From an uncultured Verrucomicrobiota bacterium (GTDB taxonomy: Bacteria > Verrucomicrobiota > Verrucomicrobiia > Limisphaerales > UBA9464), in NCBI GenBank assembly GCA_903922605.1, contig CAIXUG010000077.1, forward strand, positions 1 to 64,000: DNA of 64,000 nucleotides. Direction: 5' to 3'. A program made the position numbers and the translations under genes. This document shows positions 37,339 through 45,569 of the stretch, in pieces. The notes below the pieces were generated by a model, which was given only the letters and a program-made list of their open reading frames with translations, had not been told where the DNA came from and did no database searches. Positions within the stretch are counted from its first letter, which is position 1. Every line of letters begins with the position of its first letter.

Positions 37339-37950
37339 ATGCAATGGCTCATGGTTACCGGCTCGTTTCTGCTTCAGCTCGCGGCGCTCATTTTGGTGGC
37401 GGATTTTGCCGGCGGTTTCGTCCACTGGCTGGAGGATGCCTACGGGCATCCCGACACACCGGTGATCGGCCGGCTCGTCATCCGCCCCAACATTGTCCAC
37501 CACCACCACCCGCGCCGCTTCCTGCACTACGGCTGGTTGCGCAGTTCGTGGGATCTGCTGTGCGTGGCCGTGCTGATGGTGCTGGTGGCCGGCTGGCTCG
37601 GCTGTCTGACGTGGCGCGTGTGGGTGTTCGCGGGCCTGACGGCGAACATGAACCAGTTCCACAAATGGGGCCATGGCAGCCGCCGGGAAAATGGCCCGTT
37701 CATCTCCCGGCTGCAGGACCTGCGGCTGATCCAGACTGCCCGGCATCATGCCAAGCACCACACGGACCCGAAAAATGTCTCCTACTGCGTGGTGACAAAC
37801 GTGCTGAACCCGTTCTTGGACCGGCTGCGGTTCTGGGACACGCTTGAGCACGTCATCTGGAAGCTCACCGGCCTGCGCCGTCGTGCGGACACGTCCGTCA
37901 ACGGGCAGGGACCGGCTCCCGAATGGCTGCGCGCTGAAATCACGAACTGA
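37339..37950 (+). CDS. CarF/Kua-type plasmanylethanolamine desaturase-like protein
   Basis: A 203-residue membrane protein with helices at about 5-30 and 72-102. It has the histidine pattern of the CarF/TMEM189 (PEDS1) lipid-desaturase family: ADFAGGFVHWLEDAYG (His29), RPNIVHHHHPRRF (His54-57), NQFHKWGH (His108, His112) and TARHHAKHH (His136, 137, 140, 141), followed by NVSYCVVTNVLNPFLD. CarF and TMEM189 introduce the vinyl-ether double bond of plasmalogens. It begins a plus-strand cluster of phospholipid genes, 4 bases before lplT. Family strong, activity inferred. Confidence 0.85.
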   Translation: MQWLMVTGSFLLQLAALILVADFAGGFVHWLEDAYGHPDTPVIGRLVIRPNIVHHHHPRRFLHYGWLRSSWDLLCVAVLMVLVAGWLGCLTWRVWVFAGLTANMNQFHKWGHGSRRENGPFISRLQDLRLIQTARHHAKHHTDPKNVSYCVVTNVLNPFLDRLRFWDTLEHVIWKLTGLRRRADTSVNGQGPAPEWLRAEITN

Positions 37951-37954
37951 ACCC

Positions 37955-39229
37955 ATGAAATCCAACCGCAACTATCCGTTGCTCCTCGCCAGCCAGTTCC
38001 TCGGGGCCTTCGGCGACAACGCCATTCTGGCGGTGATCGTCGGCCAGCTGACACTGATGCAGAAGGCCGGGCAAATCTCCCAGGAGGAGCTGCGCCAGAG
38101 GGGTACGATCTACACGAGCATCCTCTTCATCCCCTATGTGCTGCTCGCCCCGCTCGCCGGATTTCTCAATGACAGGCACGCCAAGACCGCGTGGCTGCGC
38201 GGCGGCAACCTGCTGAAACTGCTCGGCACCGCCGTCTGTGCCCTGAGCATCTGGTATGGCTACACGTGGCAGGGCATTGGCTACTTCATCGTGGGCATCG
38301 GCTCCACCATGTACGGCCCGGCGAAATACGGCATTCTCCCAGAGATCCTGCCGCGCGAAAAACTGGTGAAGGCCAACGGCATGGTCGAGCTGCTGACCCT
38401 GCTGGCGATCCTCTTCGGGGCCATCGGCGGCTCCGTCATCGTGGACCGCCTGCCGGTGTCGGCCTGCTACGGCGTGCTGCTCGGCATCTTCGCCTCCTCC
38501 CTGGCGTTGAACCTCTTCATGACGCGCACCCCATCGAATCCCAACGTTCATCTGGCCGCGAGCGTGGGTGAATTCTTCCGGCATTTTGGCGGCCTCCTGC
38601 GTGCCCCGCGCCTGGGCAAGGTGCTCGTCGGCACCGCGCTCTTCTGGGTCTGCGGCGCGGCCATGAAGATCAACTTCCAGCCCTGGGGACTCGATGTGCT
38701 CAAGCTGCCCGACAACACGCAGATCGCCCTGCTCGGTCTCTGGCTCAGCGTCGGCGTGATGATTGGCAGCATTTCCGCCGGGAGGTTCTACCGGGTCAGC
38801 GACCTGCGGCACTCGCGGTGGTTTGGCTTCGCGCTGGCGGCCATGCTTCTCGTGGTCTTTGCGGTGGCACCGCTCGGTCTGGGTGAAATGGGCCGTCACG
38901 TCATCGAGTCGGCAAAGCCGGATGGCACGAAGTCGGTGACCTTGGTGGTGTTGCCCGTCGTGATGCTGCTGCTGGCGGCGACGGGTGTGGTGGCGGGACT
39001 GTTCCTTATTCCGCTCAATGCCGCGCTGCAGGCCGAGTCGGACCCGTCGAAGCTGGGCAAGACCATCGCGGTGCAGAACTTCACCGACAATTGCGGGATG
39101 ATCCTCGCCGGCCTGCTGGTGTTTGCCTGTGTGCAGCTGCACCTCTCGGCCTCGCAGGTCTTCCTGGCCCTGGCGGGTTTGGTGATCGTCGTCGTCGCCT
39201 GGCTGCGGATCCCAAAATCGGAGGCGTAA
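37955..39229 (+). CDS. Lysophospholipid transporter (LplT-like, major facilitator)
   Basis: A 424-residue transporter with about 12 helices. The LplT-type N-terminus is clear (PLLLASQFLGAFGDNAILAVIVGQL), with YTSILFIPYVLLAPLAGFLNDRH, GIGSTMYGPAKYGILPEILP and AVQNFTDNCGMILAGLL. LplT flips lysophospholipids from the periplasmic to the cytoplasmic leaflet for reacylation by Aas. An Aas-like gene lies two genes downstream, supporting this role. Confidence 0.88.
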   Translation: MKSNRNYPLLLASQFLGAFGDNAILAVIVGQLTLMQKAGQISQEELRQRGTIYTSILFIPYVLLAPLAGFLNDRHAKTAWLRGGNLLKLLGTAVCALSIWYGYTWQGIGYFIVGIGSTMYGPAKYGILPEILPREKLVKANGMVELLTLLAILFGAIGGSVIVDRLPVSACYGVLLGIFASSLALNLFMTRTPSNPNVHLAASVGEFFRHFGGLLRAPRLGKVLVGTALFWVCGAAMKINFQPWGLDVLKLPDNTQIALLGLWLSVGVMIGSISAGRFYRVSDLRHSRWFGFALAAMLLVVFAVAPLGLGEMGRHVIESAKPDGTKSVTLVVLPVVMLLLAATGVVAGLFLIPLNAALQAESDPSKLGKTIAVQNFTDNCGMILAGLLVFACVQLHLSASQVFLALAGLVIVVVAWLRIPKSEA

Positions 39230-40738
39230 ATGGAGACGACGGCCCAACCTGAAAGGAACGTCCCGCCATCGCCGGCGGGGTTGCCAGAGGTGGCGTCCGC
39301 CCGGCGTTTGCGTCCCGCGACGGTGGCGCTGCTGGTGGTCGGCGCGGTGGCGTCTTTCCAGCTCGCGTTCCAGTTTACGCCGCTGTGCTGGCTGGTGCTG
39401 GCGTATCTCGGTTGCCTCTACGAGCTGCGCCGGGTGGCTACGGCACGCCAGGCGTTCTATGGCGGTATGGTGGTGGGACTGGGCGTGTTTGTGCCGCAGA
39501 TGGGGTTCATGTGGACCATCTTCGGCCCGGCGGCCATTCCGCTGTGGCTGATTCTGGCCTTCTTCCACGGTGTGTTCCTCCTTCTGCTGCACCGTGTGGA
39601 AGTCCGGCTGGGTGCGTGCTGGGCGATGTGGCTCGCGCCGGTGCTTTGGTGCGGGATCGAATACTTCCGCAGCGAGGTTTGGTGGCTGCGGTTCACGTGG
39701 TTCACAGCGGGAACCGTCTTCGATCCGCCGGTTGGAATGGCGCTGTGCGTGGGCGTTTACGGCGCAGGATTGATCGCCTTCCAATGCGCGATTTTCCTGC
39801 GGCGCCTGGTGTCCCGTACTTTTTCCAAGGCCGATGGGATGCTGCTGGCCGCATGGGCATTGCTGATCATCGTGCTCCCTGCTTTCGCTGTCGCTTCTAA
39901 TGCTCGTCAGCGCAGCCTGCATGTTGCCGGCGTTCAGTTGGAATTTCCCGGTGTGCCGGAAGTCGTCACCGCGCTCGACCGCGTCGCCAAGGCGCATCCC
40001 GAAGCCGAGTTGCTGATGCTCAGCGAATATACCTTCGACGGACCAGTGCCCGATGCGGTGAAGATCTGGTGCAAACGGAACGACAAGTGGCTCGTGGCGG
40101 GCGGTAAGGACGTCCTCCAGCCGGGGGGAAGTCCGGGCAAACCGTTGTTGGGGCCGCCCACTGCTGGCGTGGCCACGGAGCGCTATTACAACACCGCCTT
40201 CGTGATCAGTACCAGCGGCGAGGTTGTGTTCACGCAGGCGAAGTCGCGGCCCATCCAGTTCTTCAAGGACGGCGAGCCGGCGCGCGAACAGCGGGTTTGG
40301 GACTCGCCGTGGGGCAAGCTCGGTATCGCCATCTGCTACGATGTCAGTTACCGCCGCGTGATGGACGAGCTCATACGCCAAGGTGCGGGGGCGTTGCTTA
40401 TCCCGACGATGGATGTCGAGCCATGGGGCGAACATGAGCACCGGCTCAACGCCCGCATGGCCAGGATCCGTGCCGCCGAATATGGCGTGCCCATCTTCCG
40501 CGTCGCCAGTTCCGGCATCTCCCAACTGATCAACACCCTGGGTGATGAGCAGTCGACCACCTCCTATCCCGGCCCGGGCGAAATCATCTCGGGCGAGCTG
40601 CGCCTGCGAGTGCGGGGAGGCACCGTGCCACTGGATCGCTGGTTGGCCCCGTTCTGCACGGTCGTAACCGGCGGTGTGCTGACGGCCTTGATTGTGTTCG
40701 CCTGGCGGGATCGCGCTTCGTGGAAGGAGTCGACGTGA
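39230..40738 (+). CDS. Apolipoprotein N-acyltransferase-like (Lnt)
   Basis: A 502-residue protein with about six N-terminal helices and a C-terminal helix around a nitrilase-type domain. The catalytic triad is visible: Glu266 (MLSEYTF), Lys338 (QAKSRP) and Cys369 (AICYDVSY). This matches Lnt, which moves an acyl chain from phosphatidylethanolamine to the N-terminal cysteine of lipoproteins in the periplasm. Start ATG lies directly after the lplT stop. It could be a second, specialised copy. Confidence 0.85.
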   Translation: METTAQPERNVPPSPAGLPEVASARRLRPATVALLVVGAVASFQLAFQFTPLCWLVLAYLGCLYELRRVATARQAFYGGMVVGLGVFVPQMGFMWTIFGPAAIPLWLILAFFHGVFLLLLHRVEVRLGACWAMWLAPVLWCGIEYFRSEVWWLRFTWFTAGTVFDPPVGMALCVGVYGAGLIAFQCAIFLRRLVSRTFSKADGMLLAAWALLIIVLPAFAVASNARQRSLHVAGVQLEFPGVPEVVTALDRVAKAHPEAELLMLSEYTFDGPVPDAVKIWCKRNDKWLVAGGKDVLQPGGSPGKPLLGPPTAGVATERYYNTAFVISTSGEVVFTQAKSRPIQFFKDGEPAREQRVWDSPWGKLGIAICYDVSYRRVMDELIRQGAGALLIPTMDVEPWGEHEHRLNARMARIRAAEYGVPIFRVASSGISQLINTLGDEQSTTSYPGPGEIISGELRLRVRGGTVPLDRWLAPFCTVVTGGVLTALIVFAWRDRASWKEST

Positions 40739-40745
40739 GCGCGCC

Positions 40746-40872
40746 AGCGTCTTGGAGTGCGGCAGCCCTCTGCCGCTTTGTGGGGCGTACAGAAACGGTC
40801 AGCGTGCTCCAGCCCTTTGGCAATCCATCCGGCTGTCGAAAGCGCGAGAGGGCTCGCGCAGTCCAAGACGCT
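40746..40872. repeat. 127-bp palindromic element with two hairpin ends
   Basis: Ends are inverted (AGCGTCTTGGA at 40746 and its complement ending 40872). Each end contains a perfect 7-bp hairpin with the loop CCCT: GCGGCAG-CCCT-CTGCCGC on the left and, read from the other strand, GCGCGAG-CCCT-CTCGCGC on the right. The two hairpins differ by compensatory base swaps. The element lies between lnt and the aas-like gene and has the REPIN/MITE layout. Confidence 0.85.
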
Positions 40873-40952
40873 CCGCGACTTCGCCTGCTGCCTTCCTTCG
40901 GCGACGACGCTTTGGTTCTCTTCCGACGCGTCTGCGTGATCGGTAATCTTCC

Positions 40953-43151
40953 ATGAAATCGTTCTTCCTCGAACTCGTCCGGTTCTGCTTCCGCTTCCGG
41001 GCGTACAACACCGAGGTGCTCACCACTCCGGGGCCGGTGCTGCTGCTGCCGAACCACACTTCGTGGCTCGACTGGCTTTTTCTCTACGTCGTGCTGGATG
41101 ACGACTGGAAATTCGTCACCTCCAGCACCACGGCGCAGGCGAGCTGGCTGCACCGGAAGATCATGGTGAATGAGCGCACCTTCCCGGTGGACACGACCTC
41201 GCCCTACGCGGTGAAGCGCATGGCCGAGTATCTGGCCACGGGCGGGCGTTTGGTACTCTTCGCCGAGGGCCGCATCTCGATCACCGGCTCGCTGATGAAG
41301 CTCTTTGATGGCACCGGCTTCCTCGTCCACAAGACCCACGCCAAGGTCATCACCGCGTATCTGCGGGGCGCGAACCGCGTCCATTGGGTGCGGCACAAGG
41401 GCTGGACGAAATGGTTTCCCACCGTGACCGCGCATTTCAGCCAGGTGCTCGAAGCCCCCGCGCTGCCGGAGGGGACCTCGAACACCATCGCACGGCAGAA
41501 GCGCACCACCTGGCTGCGTGACGTGATGGTGCGGCAGCAGTTCGATACGGAGACGGAGTTTGGACAACGCACCGTGCTGGGCGCCATCGCGGAGACGGCG
41601 GGGAACATCCCGGGCAAAATCGTGCTCGAAGATTTCACGGGGGCGGAGGTCACGTATCGCAAGCTGATGGTCGGGACCGAAGTGCTGGCGCAGGCGTTGA
41701 CGCCGCCCGTGCTCGGGCCCGCCACCCGGGTCGGGGTGCTGCTGCCCAATATCAACGGGACACCCATCATCCTGCTCGCTCTGTGGTCGCTGGGCCGGGT
41801 GCCGGCGCTCCTGAACTTCTCGACCGGCGCACCAGTGATGCTCCAGTGCGCGCAACTGGCCGGGTTGAAACAGATCATCACGTCACGGCAGTTCGTCACG
41901 AAGGCGAAGCTGGACATGAGCACCTTTGCACCGGCCGGCATCGAGCTGATTTTTCTGGAGGATGTGCGGGCGGGCATCACCGCGATGTCCAAATTCGCCG
42001 CGCTGCTGCATCACACCTTAAACTGTGGCGCCGGCCTGCGCGACGTGACCCCGCAAGCGGGGAGCGGGGAGCGCGGAGCGGGGAGCGGCGAGGCCATTCC
42101 TTCCGATCCAGCGGTGATCCTGTTCACCTCCGGTTCGGAGGGCGTGCCCAAGGGAGTCGAGCTTACCCATGCCAACCTGCTCGCCAACATCCGCCAGGTG
42201 GACGTGACGATGGACCTTACGGATGAGGAGCGGTTTTTCAACGCGATGCCGCTGTTCCACAGCTTCGGCCTCACGGCCTGCACGCTCTATCCGCTGGTGC
42301 GCGGGCTATACGTGTTCCTGTACCCGTCGCCCTTGCATTACCGCATGGTGCCGGCGGCAGTTTACGATCGCGCGTGTACCATCATGGTCGGCACGAACAC
42401 CTTCCTGAACGGTTACGCGCGCAAGGCGCATCCCTACGATTTCAGCACGGTGAAGTACCTCGTGGCGGGCGCCGAGAAGGTGCAGGAGGCCACCGCGAAC
42501 ATCTGGGCGCGCAAGTTCGGTGTGCGCCTGCTCGAGGGCTACGGCGCGACCGAGTGCAGCCCGGCGGTGTGCCTGAACTCGCGTGTGGACGTGAAGTTCG
42601 GCTCGGTCGGCCGCTTCATGCCGGGCATGGAGTGGCGGCTGGAACCGGTCGAGGGCGTTGCCGAGGGCGGTCGGCTCTTCGTGCACGGGCCGAACATCAT
42701 GAAGGGCTACCTCAACCCCGAGCCCAACGCGGCATTCCTCGCGCTCGGCGGCTGGTACGACACCGGCGACATGGTGCGCGTGGACGACGAGGGCTTCGTC
42801 TTCATTCTCGGCCGGCTGAAGCGCTTCGCGAAGGTCAGCGGTGAGATGGTGAGCCTGACGGCGGTGGAGGATGCGCTGGCAGGTGCGTTCCCGCAGTTCG
42901 GCCTGCGCTGCGAGATCGCGGTGGTCGCGGTCCACGACGAGGACAAGGGCGAGAAGCTCATCGCCATCACCAACGAACCCAAGCTCACGCTCGACGACCT
43001 GCGCCAGGTCATCCGCGCCAAGGGTCTTACCAACCTCTGCACACCACGTGAAATCCGCGCCGTGCATGAGATCCCGAAACTCGGCACCGGCAAGGTGAAC
43101 CACCGGGCGCTGATGGAGCAGCTCCAGGCGGAGAGCAAACCCGCTGCATGA
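40953..43151 (+). CDS. Acyltransferase / acyl-ACP synthetase fusion (Aas-like)
   Basis: A 732-residue fusion. The N-terminal PlsC domain has LPNHTSWLDWLF (His35, Asp40) and LFAEGRIS. The C-terminal AMP-binding domain has ILFTSGSEGVPKGVELTH, LEGYGATECSPAV, YDTGDMVRVDDEG and GKVNHRAL. Aas of E. coli reacylates 2-acyl-glycerophosphoethanolamine in the inner membrane. Near residues 366-382 a Gly/Ser/Glu stretch (GSGERGAGSGE) from a G-rich repeat interrupts the AMP-binding domain just before its P-loop. It overlaps the next gene by ATGA. Confidence 0.9.
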   Translation: MKSFFLELVRFCFRFRAYNTEVLTTPGPVLLLPNHTSWLDWLFLYVVLDDDWKFVTSSTTAQASWLHRKIMVNERTFPVDTTSPYAVKRMAEYLATGGRLVLFAEGRISITGSLMKLFDGTGFLVHKTHAKVITAYLRGANRVHWVRHKGWTKWFPTVTAHFSQVLEAPALPEGTSNTIARQKRTTWLRDVMVRQQFDTETEFGQRTVLGAIAETAGNIPGKIVLEDFTGAEVTYRKLMVGTEVLAQALTPPVLGPATRVGVLLPNINGTPIILLALWSLGRVPALLNFSTGAPVMLQCAQLAGLKQIITSRQFVTKAKLDMSTFAPAGIELIFLEDVRAGITAMSKFAALLHHTLNCGAGLRDVTPQAGSGERGAGSGEAIPSDPAVILFTSGSEGVPKGVELTHANLLANIRQVDVTMDLTDEERFFNAMPLFHSFGLTACTLYPLVRGLYVFLYPSPLHYRMVPAAVYDRACTIMVGTNTFLNGYARKAHPYDFSTVKYLVAGAEKVQEATANIWARKFGVRLLEGYGATECSPAVCLNSRVDVKFGSVGRFMPGMEWRLEPVEGVAEGGRLFVHGPNIMKGYLNPEPNAAFLALGGWYDTGDMVRVDDEGFVFILGRLKRFAKVSGEMVSLTAVEDALAGAFPQFGLRCEIAVVAVHDEDKGEKLIAITNEPKLTLDDLRQVIRAKGLTNLCTPREIRAVHEIPKLGTGKVNHRALMEQLQAESKPAA

Positions 43152-43681
43152 CCGACCTCCGTGAATTCATCCGTATCCTGATGCTGTGCGTGGTTGCCTC
43201 GGTCGCCTACGGGATTGTTCACGACCAGGTCACGGCTCATCTCTGCGTTGAGTATTTCACGGTCGCCCACCCACCGGTCTTCGCAACGACCTCGCCTTTG
43301 TTGCAGGGCTTGGGCTGGGGTGTCATCGCGACGTGGTGGGTTGGAGCCTATTTGGGCGTCGCGCTCGCACTATCGGCGCGCGTCGGCAGTTGGTGGAAGG
43401 TCAAGGCCAGCGAACTCGTGCGGCCAGTTCTTCGCCTGATGGCCGTTACGGCACTGACTGCCACGGCCTGCGGATTGACCGGCTATCTGCTGTTCAAGGC
43501 GCACCGCATTGGTATTGCCGGCTGGGAAGATGCAATCCCGCGCGAGAAGCACGCCGCGTTCTCGGCGGACATCTGGTCCCATCTGGCCAGCTACGCGATG
43601 GGTTTTGCGGGAGGTCTGTTCTTGTGCGTCCAAACCCTGTGGCGTCGTTGGCGTCTCTCCCGGGAAGGCTCCAAGTGCTGA
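43148..43681 (+). CDS. Membrane protein of unknown function
   Basis: A 177-residue protein with about four helices (FIRILMLCVVASVAYGIVHD; GLGWGVIATWWVGAYLGVALAL; LMAVTALTATACGLTGYLLF; SYAMGFAGGLFLCVQTLW). The first segment with IVHDQVTAHLCVEYFTVAHPP looks conserved in type but I cannot name the family. Start overlaps the stop of the aas-like gene. Confidence 0.72.
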   Translation: MTDLREFIRILMLCVVASVAYGIVHDQVTAHLCVEYFTVAHPPVFATTSPLLQGLGWGVIATWWVGAYLGVALALSARVGSWWKVKASELVRPVLRLMAVTALTATACGLTGYLLFKAHRIGIAGWEDAIPREKHAAFSADIWSHLASYAMGFAGGLFLCVQTLWRRWRLSREGSKC

Positions 43682-44778
43682 AAAAAAAGAGAATCAGAAG
43701 TATGGCAATTCTCGGCGGCGCATTCGTCCTGGCCCTCGTGGGGCTGCGTCTGGTCTTCTTCCATGGTCCCTACCAATCCCCCCACTCGCTGCCCGAGGCC
43801 AAGCTGCTCGACCTTCACTGCCATACAGCAGGCATCGGCGCGGGCGGCAGTGGCTGCTTTGTGTCGCGTGAGCTGGAGCAGAGCTACAAGTTTGGCATTT
43901 ATCTCAAGGCCTTCGGCGTGACGCGGGAGGAGCTGGCCCGTGAAGGCGATGCGTTGATCATGCGACGCATTTCCGAGCAGCTGTCGGGCAGCGCCAAGGT
44001 TGGTCAGGCCATCGTGCTTGCGCTGGATGGCGTGGTGAACGAGGCGGGTGAATTGGACCGGACGAATACGCAGGCTTACGTGCCGAACGAGTTCGTGGCC
44101 ACCGAGACCGCGAAGTTCACCAACCTCCTCTGGGGCGCGAGCATCAACCCCTACCGCAAGGATGCCCTCGCGCGGCTCGACTGGGCCGCCGCGCACGGCG
44201 CGAAGCTGGTGAAATGGATTCCCAGCACCATGCACATCGACCCGGCGGACGAACGGATCACGCCGTTCTACCGCCGCATGGTGGAGCTGAAGCTGCCATT
44301 GCTCTGCCATGCGGGGCAGGAGCGCGGTTTCGTGGGGGCACAGGATGAACTGGCCGATCCGGTGCGGCTGGAGCTTCCCTTGAAGCTCGGTGTCACGGTC
44401 ATCGCCGCGCACATCGCGTCCACCGGGAAAGACGACGGCGAACGCGACACCGACCGGCTCGCCCGCATGATGGCCGCGCACACCAACCTCTATTCGGAGA
44501 TCTCGTCGCTCACCCAGGCGAACAAGCCCGGCTACCTGCGCGAGGCGCTGACCCGACCGGAGTTTCGCGGGCGGCTGCTCTATGGCACCGATTTCCCGCT
44601 CATCAACACGGCGCTCGTTTCGCCCTGGTTTTACCCGTTGAACCTGACCCGGACGCAGATGGCGAAAATTGCCGCCATTAAAAACCCCTGGGACCGCGAT
44701 GTGGCGCTGAAGCAGGCGCTGGGCGTGCCGCCGGAGATCTTTGCCCGCGCGGATTCACTGTTTCGCGCCAAGCCATGA
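43675..44778 (+). CDS. Membrane-anchored amidohydrolase-family protein
   Basis: A 367-residue protein starting at GTG 43675 (LKKKRIRS, then a membrane anchor AILGGAFVLALVGLRLVFF), with GGAAGG seven bases before it; an ATG at 43702 is possible. The catalytic part is a TIM barrel: LLDLHCHTAG, PLLCHAGQERGF, VIAAHIAST and LLYGTDFPLI, the metal-dependent hydrolase pattern. The substrate is unknown. An A8 run follows the upstream stop. The gene is in the same plus-strand run as the lipid genes. Confidence 0.78.
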   Translation: MLKKKRIRSMAILGGAFVLALVGLRLVFFHGPYQSPHSLPEAKLLDLHCHTAGIGAGGSGCFVSRELEQSYKFGIYLKAFGVTREELAREGDALIMRRISEQLSGSAKVGQAIVLALDGVVNEAGELDRTNTQAYVPNEFVATETAKFTNLLWGASINPYRKDALARLDWAAAHGAKLVKWIPSTMHIDPADERITPFYRRMVELKLPLLCHAGQERGFVGAQDELADPVRLELPLKLGVTVIAAHIASTGKDDGERDTDRLARMMAAHTNLYSEISSLTQANKPGYLREALTRPEFRGRLLYGTDFPLINTALVSPWFYPLNLTRTQMAKIAAIKNPWDRDVALKQALGVPPEIFARADSLFRAKP

Positions 44779-44786
44779 GGGGTGAC

Positions 44787-45569
44787 ATGGAACTTCGCCG
44801 ACACGGCGACGCGACCTTGCCGGCGCTGATTTATCTGCCGGGCCTGCATGGGGACTGGACACTGATCAGTTCGTTTCGCCAGGCGGTCGAAGGCCGCGTC
44901 CACTTTGTCGAGCTGGCGTATCCCCGCGCCGTGACGCCCAGCCTCGCGGATCTTGCGCGCGCGATCCTCACCGGCTTGCAGGCGCAGGGCATCACCACGG
45001 GCTGGCTGCTGGCGGAGTCGTTTGGCTCACAGGTGGCGTGGGCCATGCTTCAGGAAATCCAATCGCCAGGCCTCCATGGAGCGGTGCAGTTCACGCCTGC
45101 CGGGCTGATCCTGGCGGGAGGGTTTGTGCGGCACCCGGTCATCCCTGGGGTCAGGTTGGCGAAGGTATTTTGCGCGGAAACGCCGCCCTGGTTTTTGCGG
45201 CTGTTTCTCTGGGTCTATCCCAAGTACGCACGCTTCCGTCACCGGCGGGCACCGGAGACGCTGCGCGACATTGCGGAGTTTGTGGTGCGCCGCCAGACGC
45301 CCGGCGATCGCGAGGCGATGGCCCACCGCCTGAACCTCATTGCCGCCGCCGACTTTCGCGCCCTGGCCCGCACCACCCGGGTGCCGGTGTATTCCCTGAC
45401 CGGCTTTTGGGACCCGATCGTGTTTTGGTGGCCGGTACGTGCGTGGCTGCGCCACGAGTGCCCTGCCTTGCGGGGCGACCGTTTGCTCTTCTGGGCCGAT
45501 CACACCGTGCTCGCCACCCAGCCCGACGCCTCCGCCCAACAGGTGCTTGCCTGGATGGGGCCTCACTGA
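44787..45569 (+). CDS. Alpha/beta hydrolase
   Basis: About 260 residues from MELRRHGDATL, preceded by GAGGGG; an ATG at 44775 overlapping the previous stop is also possible. The nucleophile elbow is LLAESFGSQ, the acid is in GFWDPIVF and the histidine in WADHTVL. PALIYLPGLHGDW forms the oxyanion region. The specific substrate is unknown; esterase or lipase activity is likely. Last gene of the plus-strand cluster. Confidence 0.8.
   Translation: MELRRHGDATLPALIYLPGLHGDWTLISSFRQAVEGRVHFVELAYPRAVTPSLADLARAILTGLQAQGITTGWLLAESFGSQVAWAMLQEIQSPGLHGAVQFTPAGLILAGGFVRHPVIPGVRLAKVFCAETPPWFLRLFLWVYPKYARFRHRRAPETLRDIAEFVVRRQTPGDREAMAHRLNLIAAADFRALARTTRVPVYSLTGFWDPIVFWWPVRAWLRHECPALRGDRLLFWADHTVLATQPDASAQQVLAWMGPH

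Follow-up and report, generated by a model that had tools for sequence, protein, structure and literature searches.

How does a gene for an Lnt-type protein come to stand between an LplT-like transporter gene and an Aas-like acyltransferase gene, with a membrane lipid desaturase gene ahead of all three, and what would such a cluster do? The arrangement occurs in a 64,000-nucleotide stretch of contig CAIXUG010000077.1 (GCA_903922605.1) from an uncultured Verrucomicrobiota bacterium, referred to here as the window, where the + strand of a Verrucomicrobiota-like genome carries all four open frames (Table 1), separated by 4 bp (desaturase–lplT), 0 bp (lplT–lntL) and 214 bp (lntL–aas). An earlier note on this DNA had described the four genes as one run, which was borne out, on a single strand, at the coordinates in Table 1; it had also read the last three as a recycling trio serving lipoprotein maturation and the first as a CarF-type enzyme of plasmalogen synthesis. 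The top NCBIfam models were CarF, LplT, Lnt and Aas, with every score under its curated cut-off, so that the gene names hold at family level.

We propose that the window encodes an operon that recycles lysophospholipids and includes two further enzymes, a desaturase for phospholipids and a periplasmic transacylase derived from Lnt (LntL) that uses an acceptor other than the usual apolipoprotein, a reading that we regard as evenly poised between right and wrong. The order and linkage of the genes, their families, the predicted fold and the residues kept or lost were obtained directly; from them we infer each catalytic step, its substrate, membrane side and direction, and an acceptor other than apolipoprotein. 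LntL would take an acyl chain from a phospholipid of the periplasmic leaflet, forming an acyl-enzyme, and would pass the chain on to an acceptor other than the standard apolipoprotein; LplT would move the leftover lysophospholipid to the inner side, and Aas would reacylate the flipped lipid, these two steps being based on E. coli work (PMC11416262). On the cytoplasmic side, the desaturase may add a double bond to phospholipid chains, probably those of the pool rebuilt by Aas. Lysophospholipid recycling would in this way gain a candidate dedicated source enzyme.

The LplT–Aas pair and the Lnt-fold protein between them

Judged by sequence, the window LplT and Aas are good homologues of the E. 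coli K-12 proteins (BLASTP: LplT, 29% identity, 386 columns; Aas, 39% identity, 729 columns), transport itself being predicted. LplT scored 210.7 bits against NF008397 (cut-off 297), and Aas scored 725.7 bits (cut-off 1349) against a model of 1140 positions of which only 428–1133 were matched; a PlsC-type H(X)4D motif and an AMP-binding domain lie within the one Aas chain. An LplT 99% identical to that of the window was found in L126, from an uncultured Verrucomicrobia bacterium. LplT–Aas operons are already known, and the lplT-aas operon of E. coli (the 2-acyl-glycerophosphoethanolamine cycle) likewise encodes homologues of the two proteins side by side on the same strand. In E. coli, aas comes first; in the window lplT does, with an Lnt-fold gene separating it from aas and a desaturase gene ahead.

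The recycling trio of the earlier note stands in part, as the LplT–Aas pair is present with an Lnt-type protein between its members, but the gene for that protein is lntL and not canonical lnt. LntL scored 72.3 bits against TIGR00546 (cut-off 132.9), and a canonical Lnt scoring 269.6 bits is encoded on another contig of the window's own genome, which ruled out LntL as the genome's Lnt. A search of 58 genomes, that of the window among them, gave a TIGR00546 match above the cut-off in 54, and an Lgt-type protein and two phosphatidylserine-decarboxylase-type proteins are encoded elsewhere in the own genome. Given the canonical copy and the absence from LntL of residues reported as essential in E. 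coli Lnt, the assignment of this gene to lipoprotein maturation is not supported.

Of 96 genomes searched, 46 gave an LntL match (E value ≤1e-8), the window's own genome being one of these; some have fragments only (e.g. G024, G049 and G077). A scan of named genome contigs with LntL gave 139 relatives, and the best 80, which were kept, came mostly from Verrucomicrobiota (Pedosphaera, Limisphaerales and uncultured members), with a few from Planctomycetota; the named-contig set overlaps the genome set, several contigs being identical (e.g. L126 and G004 C16). A tree of 69 rows placed the 38 LntL sequences and the 31 of canonical Lnt (E. coli included) on opposite sides of one branch with support 100/99, the bootstrap not having settled and E. 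coli Lnt forming a long branch; on this phylogeny, LntL is a clade separate from canonical Lnt. The tree and the residue counts below exclude L069, L071 and L100 (3/40 regions), and the canonical comparison set was extracted by BLAST (30/30 loci).

An AlphaFold2 (AF2) model of LntL from 34 sequences, whose alignment (A1) excludes seven entries (L069, L071, L086 and L098–L101), returned a mean predicted local distance difference test (pLDDT) score of 88.8. When searched with this model, Foldseek returned Lnt at all of ranks 1–24 (template modelling score by query length 0.65–0.71) and VIA-align at ranks 1–20 (Z 31.1–33.3, 431–451 residues), including Lnt 5n6m at Z 33.3 over 443 residues and 3.4 Å. 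LntL as modelled has the Lnt membrane-plus-nitrilase fold along its whole chain.

The Glu-Lys-Cys triad of Lnt (E267-K335-C387) is present in 38/38 LntL sequences (window E266, K338 and C369). The spacing from Lys to Cys is 31 in all 38, as against 49–69 in the 30 canonical Lnt sequences, and the Lnt arm (345–365) is therefore missing from LntL. The W237 and E343 positions have no counterpart in any of the 38, and neither G342 nor P346 has a counterpart in LntL; the E389 position is Asp and W415 and F416 are both replaced throughout, while at the G145 position 37 have Arg and one has Gln. All these positions are invariant in the 30 canonical sequences, save W237 (26 Trp, 4 Phe). The Y388 position is Tyr in 37 of the 38 LntL. 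R352 and F358 also lie in the missing arm but vary among the canonical Lnt of these bacteria, and are uninformative. The residue roles, including which residues are essential, are those given for E. coli Lnt in PMC3850990, PMC6971011 and PMC5500890, according to which E343 is important for acyl-enzyme formation. LntL has an invariant Asp at Lys+9 (38/38), where canonical Lnt has Glu at Lys+8 (30/30), and this Asp may stand in for E343 as the fourth catalytic acid. An Lnt-type protein can evidently lose the arm and gating residues yet persist in many genomes.

LntL thus resembles Lnt (TIGR00546) in its whole fold and triad and differs from it in clade, arm and several conserved residues. The resemblance, together with the Tyr kept in 37/38 sequences at the position of Y388 (essential in E. 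coli), would fit a second, auxiliary apolipoprotein N-acyltransferase in an operon that recycles lysophosphatidylethanolamine from lipoprotein maturation; LntL is linked to LplT–Aas, which act on the lipid that Lnt leaves as a by-product (PMC11416262), and an auxiliary Lnt2 is reported in Streptomyces scabies (PMC3850990). We nevertheless consider this rather unlikely, given that a canonical Lnt is already in the genome and that in all 38 LntL sequences the arm, W237 and E343 lack counterparts and E389, W415 and F416 are replaced.

A precedent for another acceptor is AatD, an Lnt homologue that acylates an N-terminal glycine (PMC7943197) and that, like LntL, bears the triad and occurs beside a canonical Lnt. 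As AatD acylates another acceptor, an Lnt homologue can serve a non-standard acceptor; by published description rather than alignment, AatD keeps the equivalent of E343 (E286), whereas LntL does not.

The 31-residue Lys–Cys loop, which leaves the site without the Lnt arm, would also suit a hydrolase of the periplasm, akin to phospholipase A or an amidase, that uses nitrilase chemistry to pass the acyl chain to water, LplT and Aas then repairing its products. The nitrilase domain does match soluble amidases (VIA-align Z 24.4–26.7, 216–240 residues, among the matches listed), but where a Foldseek match extends into the membrane domain, the partner is always Lnt (best 50 of 428 rows), and we know of no hydrolase with the entire Lnt fold. 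A hydrolase is, on this evidence, unlikely.

Linkage of the genes in related genomes

The earlier note had suggested looking for the same gene order in related genomes, and there it does recur. In a survey of 96 genomes (same strand, gaps at most 800–900 bp), 20 had LplT immediately ahead of LntL, 24 had LntL immediately ahead of Aas and 38 had LplT immediately ahead of Aas, with the complete LplT-LntL-Aas triple in 17. These counts omit three LplT matches of 27–33% identity (G076, G084 and G091), three Aas matches of 32–33% (G084, G073 and G053) and the second pieces of split LntL matches. Desaturases of the window subgroup (see below) were directly upstream of lplT in 18/20 cases, at 65–116 bp from profile match to LplT match, and four of these 18 pairs have LntL behind lplT (G000, G004, G016 and G025). 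The direction of counting matters here: starting from lntL and moving outward, a desaturase was met in only 3/80 loci, whereas the lplT link is that of 18/20 when counted from the desaturase. The order recurs in relatives whose LntL is 43–75% identical, which argues that it is not due to chance.

Five loci (L154, L156, L186, L190 and L192) have a Spinster-type transporter, with spinster homologue 1 as its best PDB relative, near lntL and an Aas-type gene. In L186 and L190, this transporter is directly before lntL, the usual place of LplT, and aas follows behind (in L186 after a 128-residue frame); the L154 copy lies on the opposite strand, and the Aas-type gene of L156 and of L192 is a distant one. 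SPNS1 is reported to carry lysolipids (PMC11141868), and by analogy the substitution is a modest sign that the cargo of the module is lysolipid.

A number of results count against a recycling operon built around a dedicated transacylase. LntL is without E343, and no candidate for its acceptor was found. Of the 80 named loci, 59 have sufficient flanking sequence to either side; among these, 16 have LplT and Aas and 14 Aas only, leaving 29/59 in which lntL has no adjacent window-type lplT or aas. Across the 96 genomes, the association of LntL presence with LplT presence was not significant (Fisher p 0.083), nor was that with Aas (0.053); within the family, the values were 0.55 (LplT) and 1.0 (Aas), and in other families 1.0 and 0.23. 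The Spinster case comprises only five loci, and in three the arrangement is less regular.

The weak presence–absence association and the frequent location of LntL elsewhere might mean that the arrangement is merely inherited, a neutral relic whose members share no pathway. The order spans deep divergence, however, and desaturase–LplT–Aas is seen both with and without LntL across different genera, which makes a relic improbable.

Neighbours shared by lntL genes away from lplT and aas were sought in the 76/80 loci with a called lntL frame, the clusters being judged by eye alone. Recurring neighbours included helicases, planctomycete-type cytochrome and sulfatase-like proteins, a subunit of NADH dehydrogenase, and proteins resembling phosphoglucomutase and cardiolipin synthase; of the twelve clusters viewed, only those of the cardiolipin-synthase-like protein, a MarR-like regulator and the Spinster-type transporter hint at a lipid pathway. 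The putative MarR-like regulator (by eye) is encoded a short way upstream of lplT, a transporter or lntL in 13 loci (L146, L148, L149, L152, L153, L160, L162, L163, L164, L167, L185, L190 and L193), and the cardiolipin-synthase-like gene (by eye) is ≤6 genes from lntL in L157, L159, L179 and L184. In L165, a PlsC-type acyltransferase (by eye; L165:3771-5201) follows lntL and a distant Aas-like gene precedes it.

The desaturase and the question of plasmalogens

The desaturase scored 89.7 bits against the NCBIfam CarF model NF045946 (cut-off 500); its AF2 model had a mean pLDDT of 87.8. A PDB search with the protein, made separately from that model, returned no relative at E≤1. PF10520 matches numbered 25 in 22 genomes, with 20 in the window subgroup (19 aligned and L123 assigned by score alone), 4 in another subgroup and 1 partial match (G056) unclassified. 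CarF/PEDS1 positions were placed from residue numbers in PMC8960569 and from PMC9131029, not by aligning CarF/PEDS1 sequence, and on this basis the offsets from the first His match exactly up to H131 (4, 22, 25, 26 and 35). The eight His and the equivalent of the essential D100 (window D33) are kept in 19/19 aligned subgroup members, so that the window desaturase is like CarF/TMEM189 (PEDS1) in family, His and Asp residues and spacing. It differs in that the last His group is shifted one residue on, in its linkage to lplT and aas, and in two further residues: the F118 position is Asn in 19/19 members (window N51), and the H131 position is Tyr in the window (Y64), with His in 6/19 members. In mouse PEDS1, F118A leaves 5.9% activity and H131A 7.4%, and the CarF and human counterparts of H131A are inactive in an M. 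xanthus assay (PMC8960569).

Plant FAD4, a phosphatidylglycerol desaturase, shares with the window protein PF10520, the eight His and the lack of H131 (PMC8960569), but eight His without H131 are also common to other PF10520 proteins, and the FAD4 likeness, compared by description and not by alignment, is weak. In four relatives (L102, L103, L104 and L105), a second PF10520 subgroup has Phe at the F118 position and Arg at that of H131, and lplT is not adjacent.

Genes of known ether-lipid routes were sought in the own genome, which is 95.84% complete. It encodes two FAD-oxidase_C proteins, whose best NCBIfam model is GlcD (517.3 and 395.7, under the cut-off of 567.9); against a PDB set containing AGPS, glycolate oxidase was best, matching almost end to end (316.0 and 309.9 bits), with at most 93.8 and 96.3 bits to AGPS over the front half only. 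Both are nearer glycolate oxidase, and no AGPS-type gene was found in this genome. Nor was a reductase-like NAD_binding_4 protein of the fatty-acyl reductase (FAR) type, the best of 12 matches scoring 62.5 bits over part of the profile and being read as not a fatty-acyl reductase. A search of the same genome for DUF2229, which we take to be the PlsA type, gave zero matches.

With F118 and H131 replaced and no AGPS-, FAR- or PlsA-type gene found, plasmalogens in this organism are not supported as far as the genome goes; the CarF name given in the earlier note needs revising, and plasmalogen synthesis was rejected as the main reading of the locus. A true plasmanylethanolamine desaturase, making plasmalogens from alkyl ether lipids through a novel route or uptake, would be consistent with the Pfam family, the eight His and D100 equivalent, the His at the H131 position in six subgroup members (the window not among these) and the residual activities of mouse PEDS1, by which neither residue is absolute there (PMC8960569), but is very improbable in view of the invariant Asn, the Tyr in the window, the low NF045946 score and the ether-lipid genes not found. 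CarF-like annotation in Verrucomicrobiota should, as a caution, not be equated with plasmalogen synthesis.

More tentatively than for the operon itself, we suggest that LntL may found a Verrucomicrobiota/Planctomycetota family of periplasmic phospholipid-dependent acyltransferases with a non-apolipoprotein acceptor which, with an unrecognised third kind of PF10520 desaturase and LplT–Aas, would form a new pathway in which phospholipids are stripped of a chain, flipped, refilled and desaturated. Among the open-licence matches listed, going by their titles and the openings of their abstracts, we recognised no literature on an Lnt paralogue between lplT and aas, on this Lnt-like family or on plasmalogens in these bacteria.

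Neighbouring genes and the intergenic repeat

Table 1. Features of the desaturase–lplT–lntL–aas locus and its downstream flank (window coordinates)
Feature	Coordinates	Strand	Remarks
Membrane lipid desaturase, PF10520 (CarF/TMEM189/FAD4 superfamily), subgroup distinct from CarF/PEDS1	37339..37950	+	203 aa; Lipid_desat PF10520 6.6e-41
LplT-like lysophospholipid transporter (major facilitator superfamily, MFS)	37955..39229	+	424 aa; MFS_1 2.3e-22
LntL, Lnt-fold membrane nitrilase without Lnt arm	39230..40738	+	502 aa; CN_hydrolase 1.1e-09
Dispersed repeat in lntL–aas gap	40739..40895	+	Internal inverted arms 40746-40779 / 40839-40872
Aas-like acyltransferase / acyl-acyl carrier protein synthetase	40953..43151	+	732 aa; Pfam Acyltransferase and AMP-binding; PlsC-type motif NHTSWLD
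Small hydrophobic protein (judged by eye), no family match	43148..43681	+	4-bp overlap with aas stop
Amidohydrolase PF04909	43702..44778	+	PF04909 1.3e-11; in-frame ATG start picked by eye
Alpha/beta-hydrolase-like protein	44775..45569	+	Weak BioH match, 20.9 bits

Beyond position 43151, same-strand frames run on to 45569. The gene for the small hydrophobic protein is a probable member of the operon, and counterparts of it were present in L062 and L084 (among 40 regions); the amidohydrolase and alpha/beta-hydrolase-like genes are possible members. A PDB search with the alpha/beta-hydrolase-like protein gave zero relatives at E≤0.01, and its gene was found on the same strand, ≤6 kb downstream of LntL, in 14/80 loci.

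The dispersed repeat in the lntL–aas gap is a repetitive extragenic palindromic (REP)- or miniature inverted-repeat transposable element (MITE)-like element. A search of the own genome with it at E≤1e-3 returned 68 match rows, of which many represent half-elements or arms on the opposite strand, and 20 rows, the window copy counted, span at least 120 bases; it is probably a passenger in this locus.

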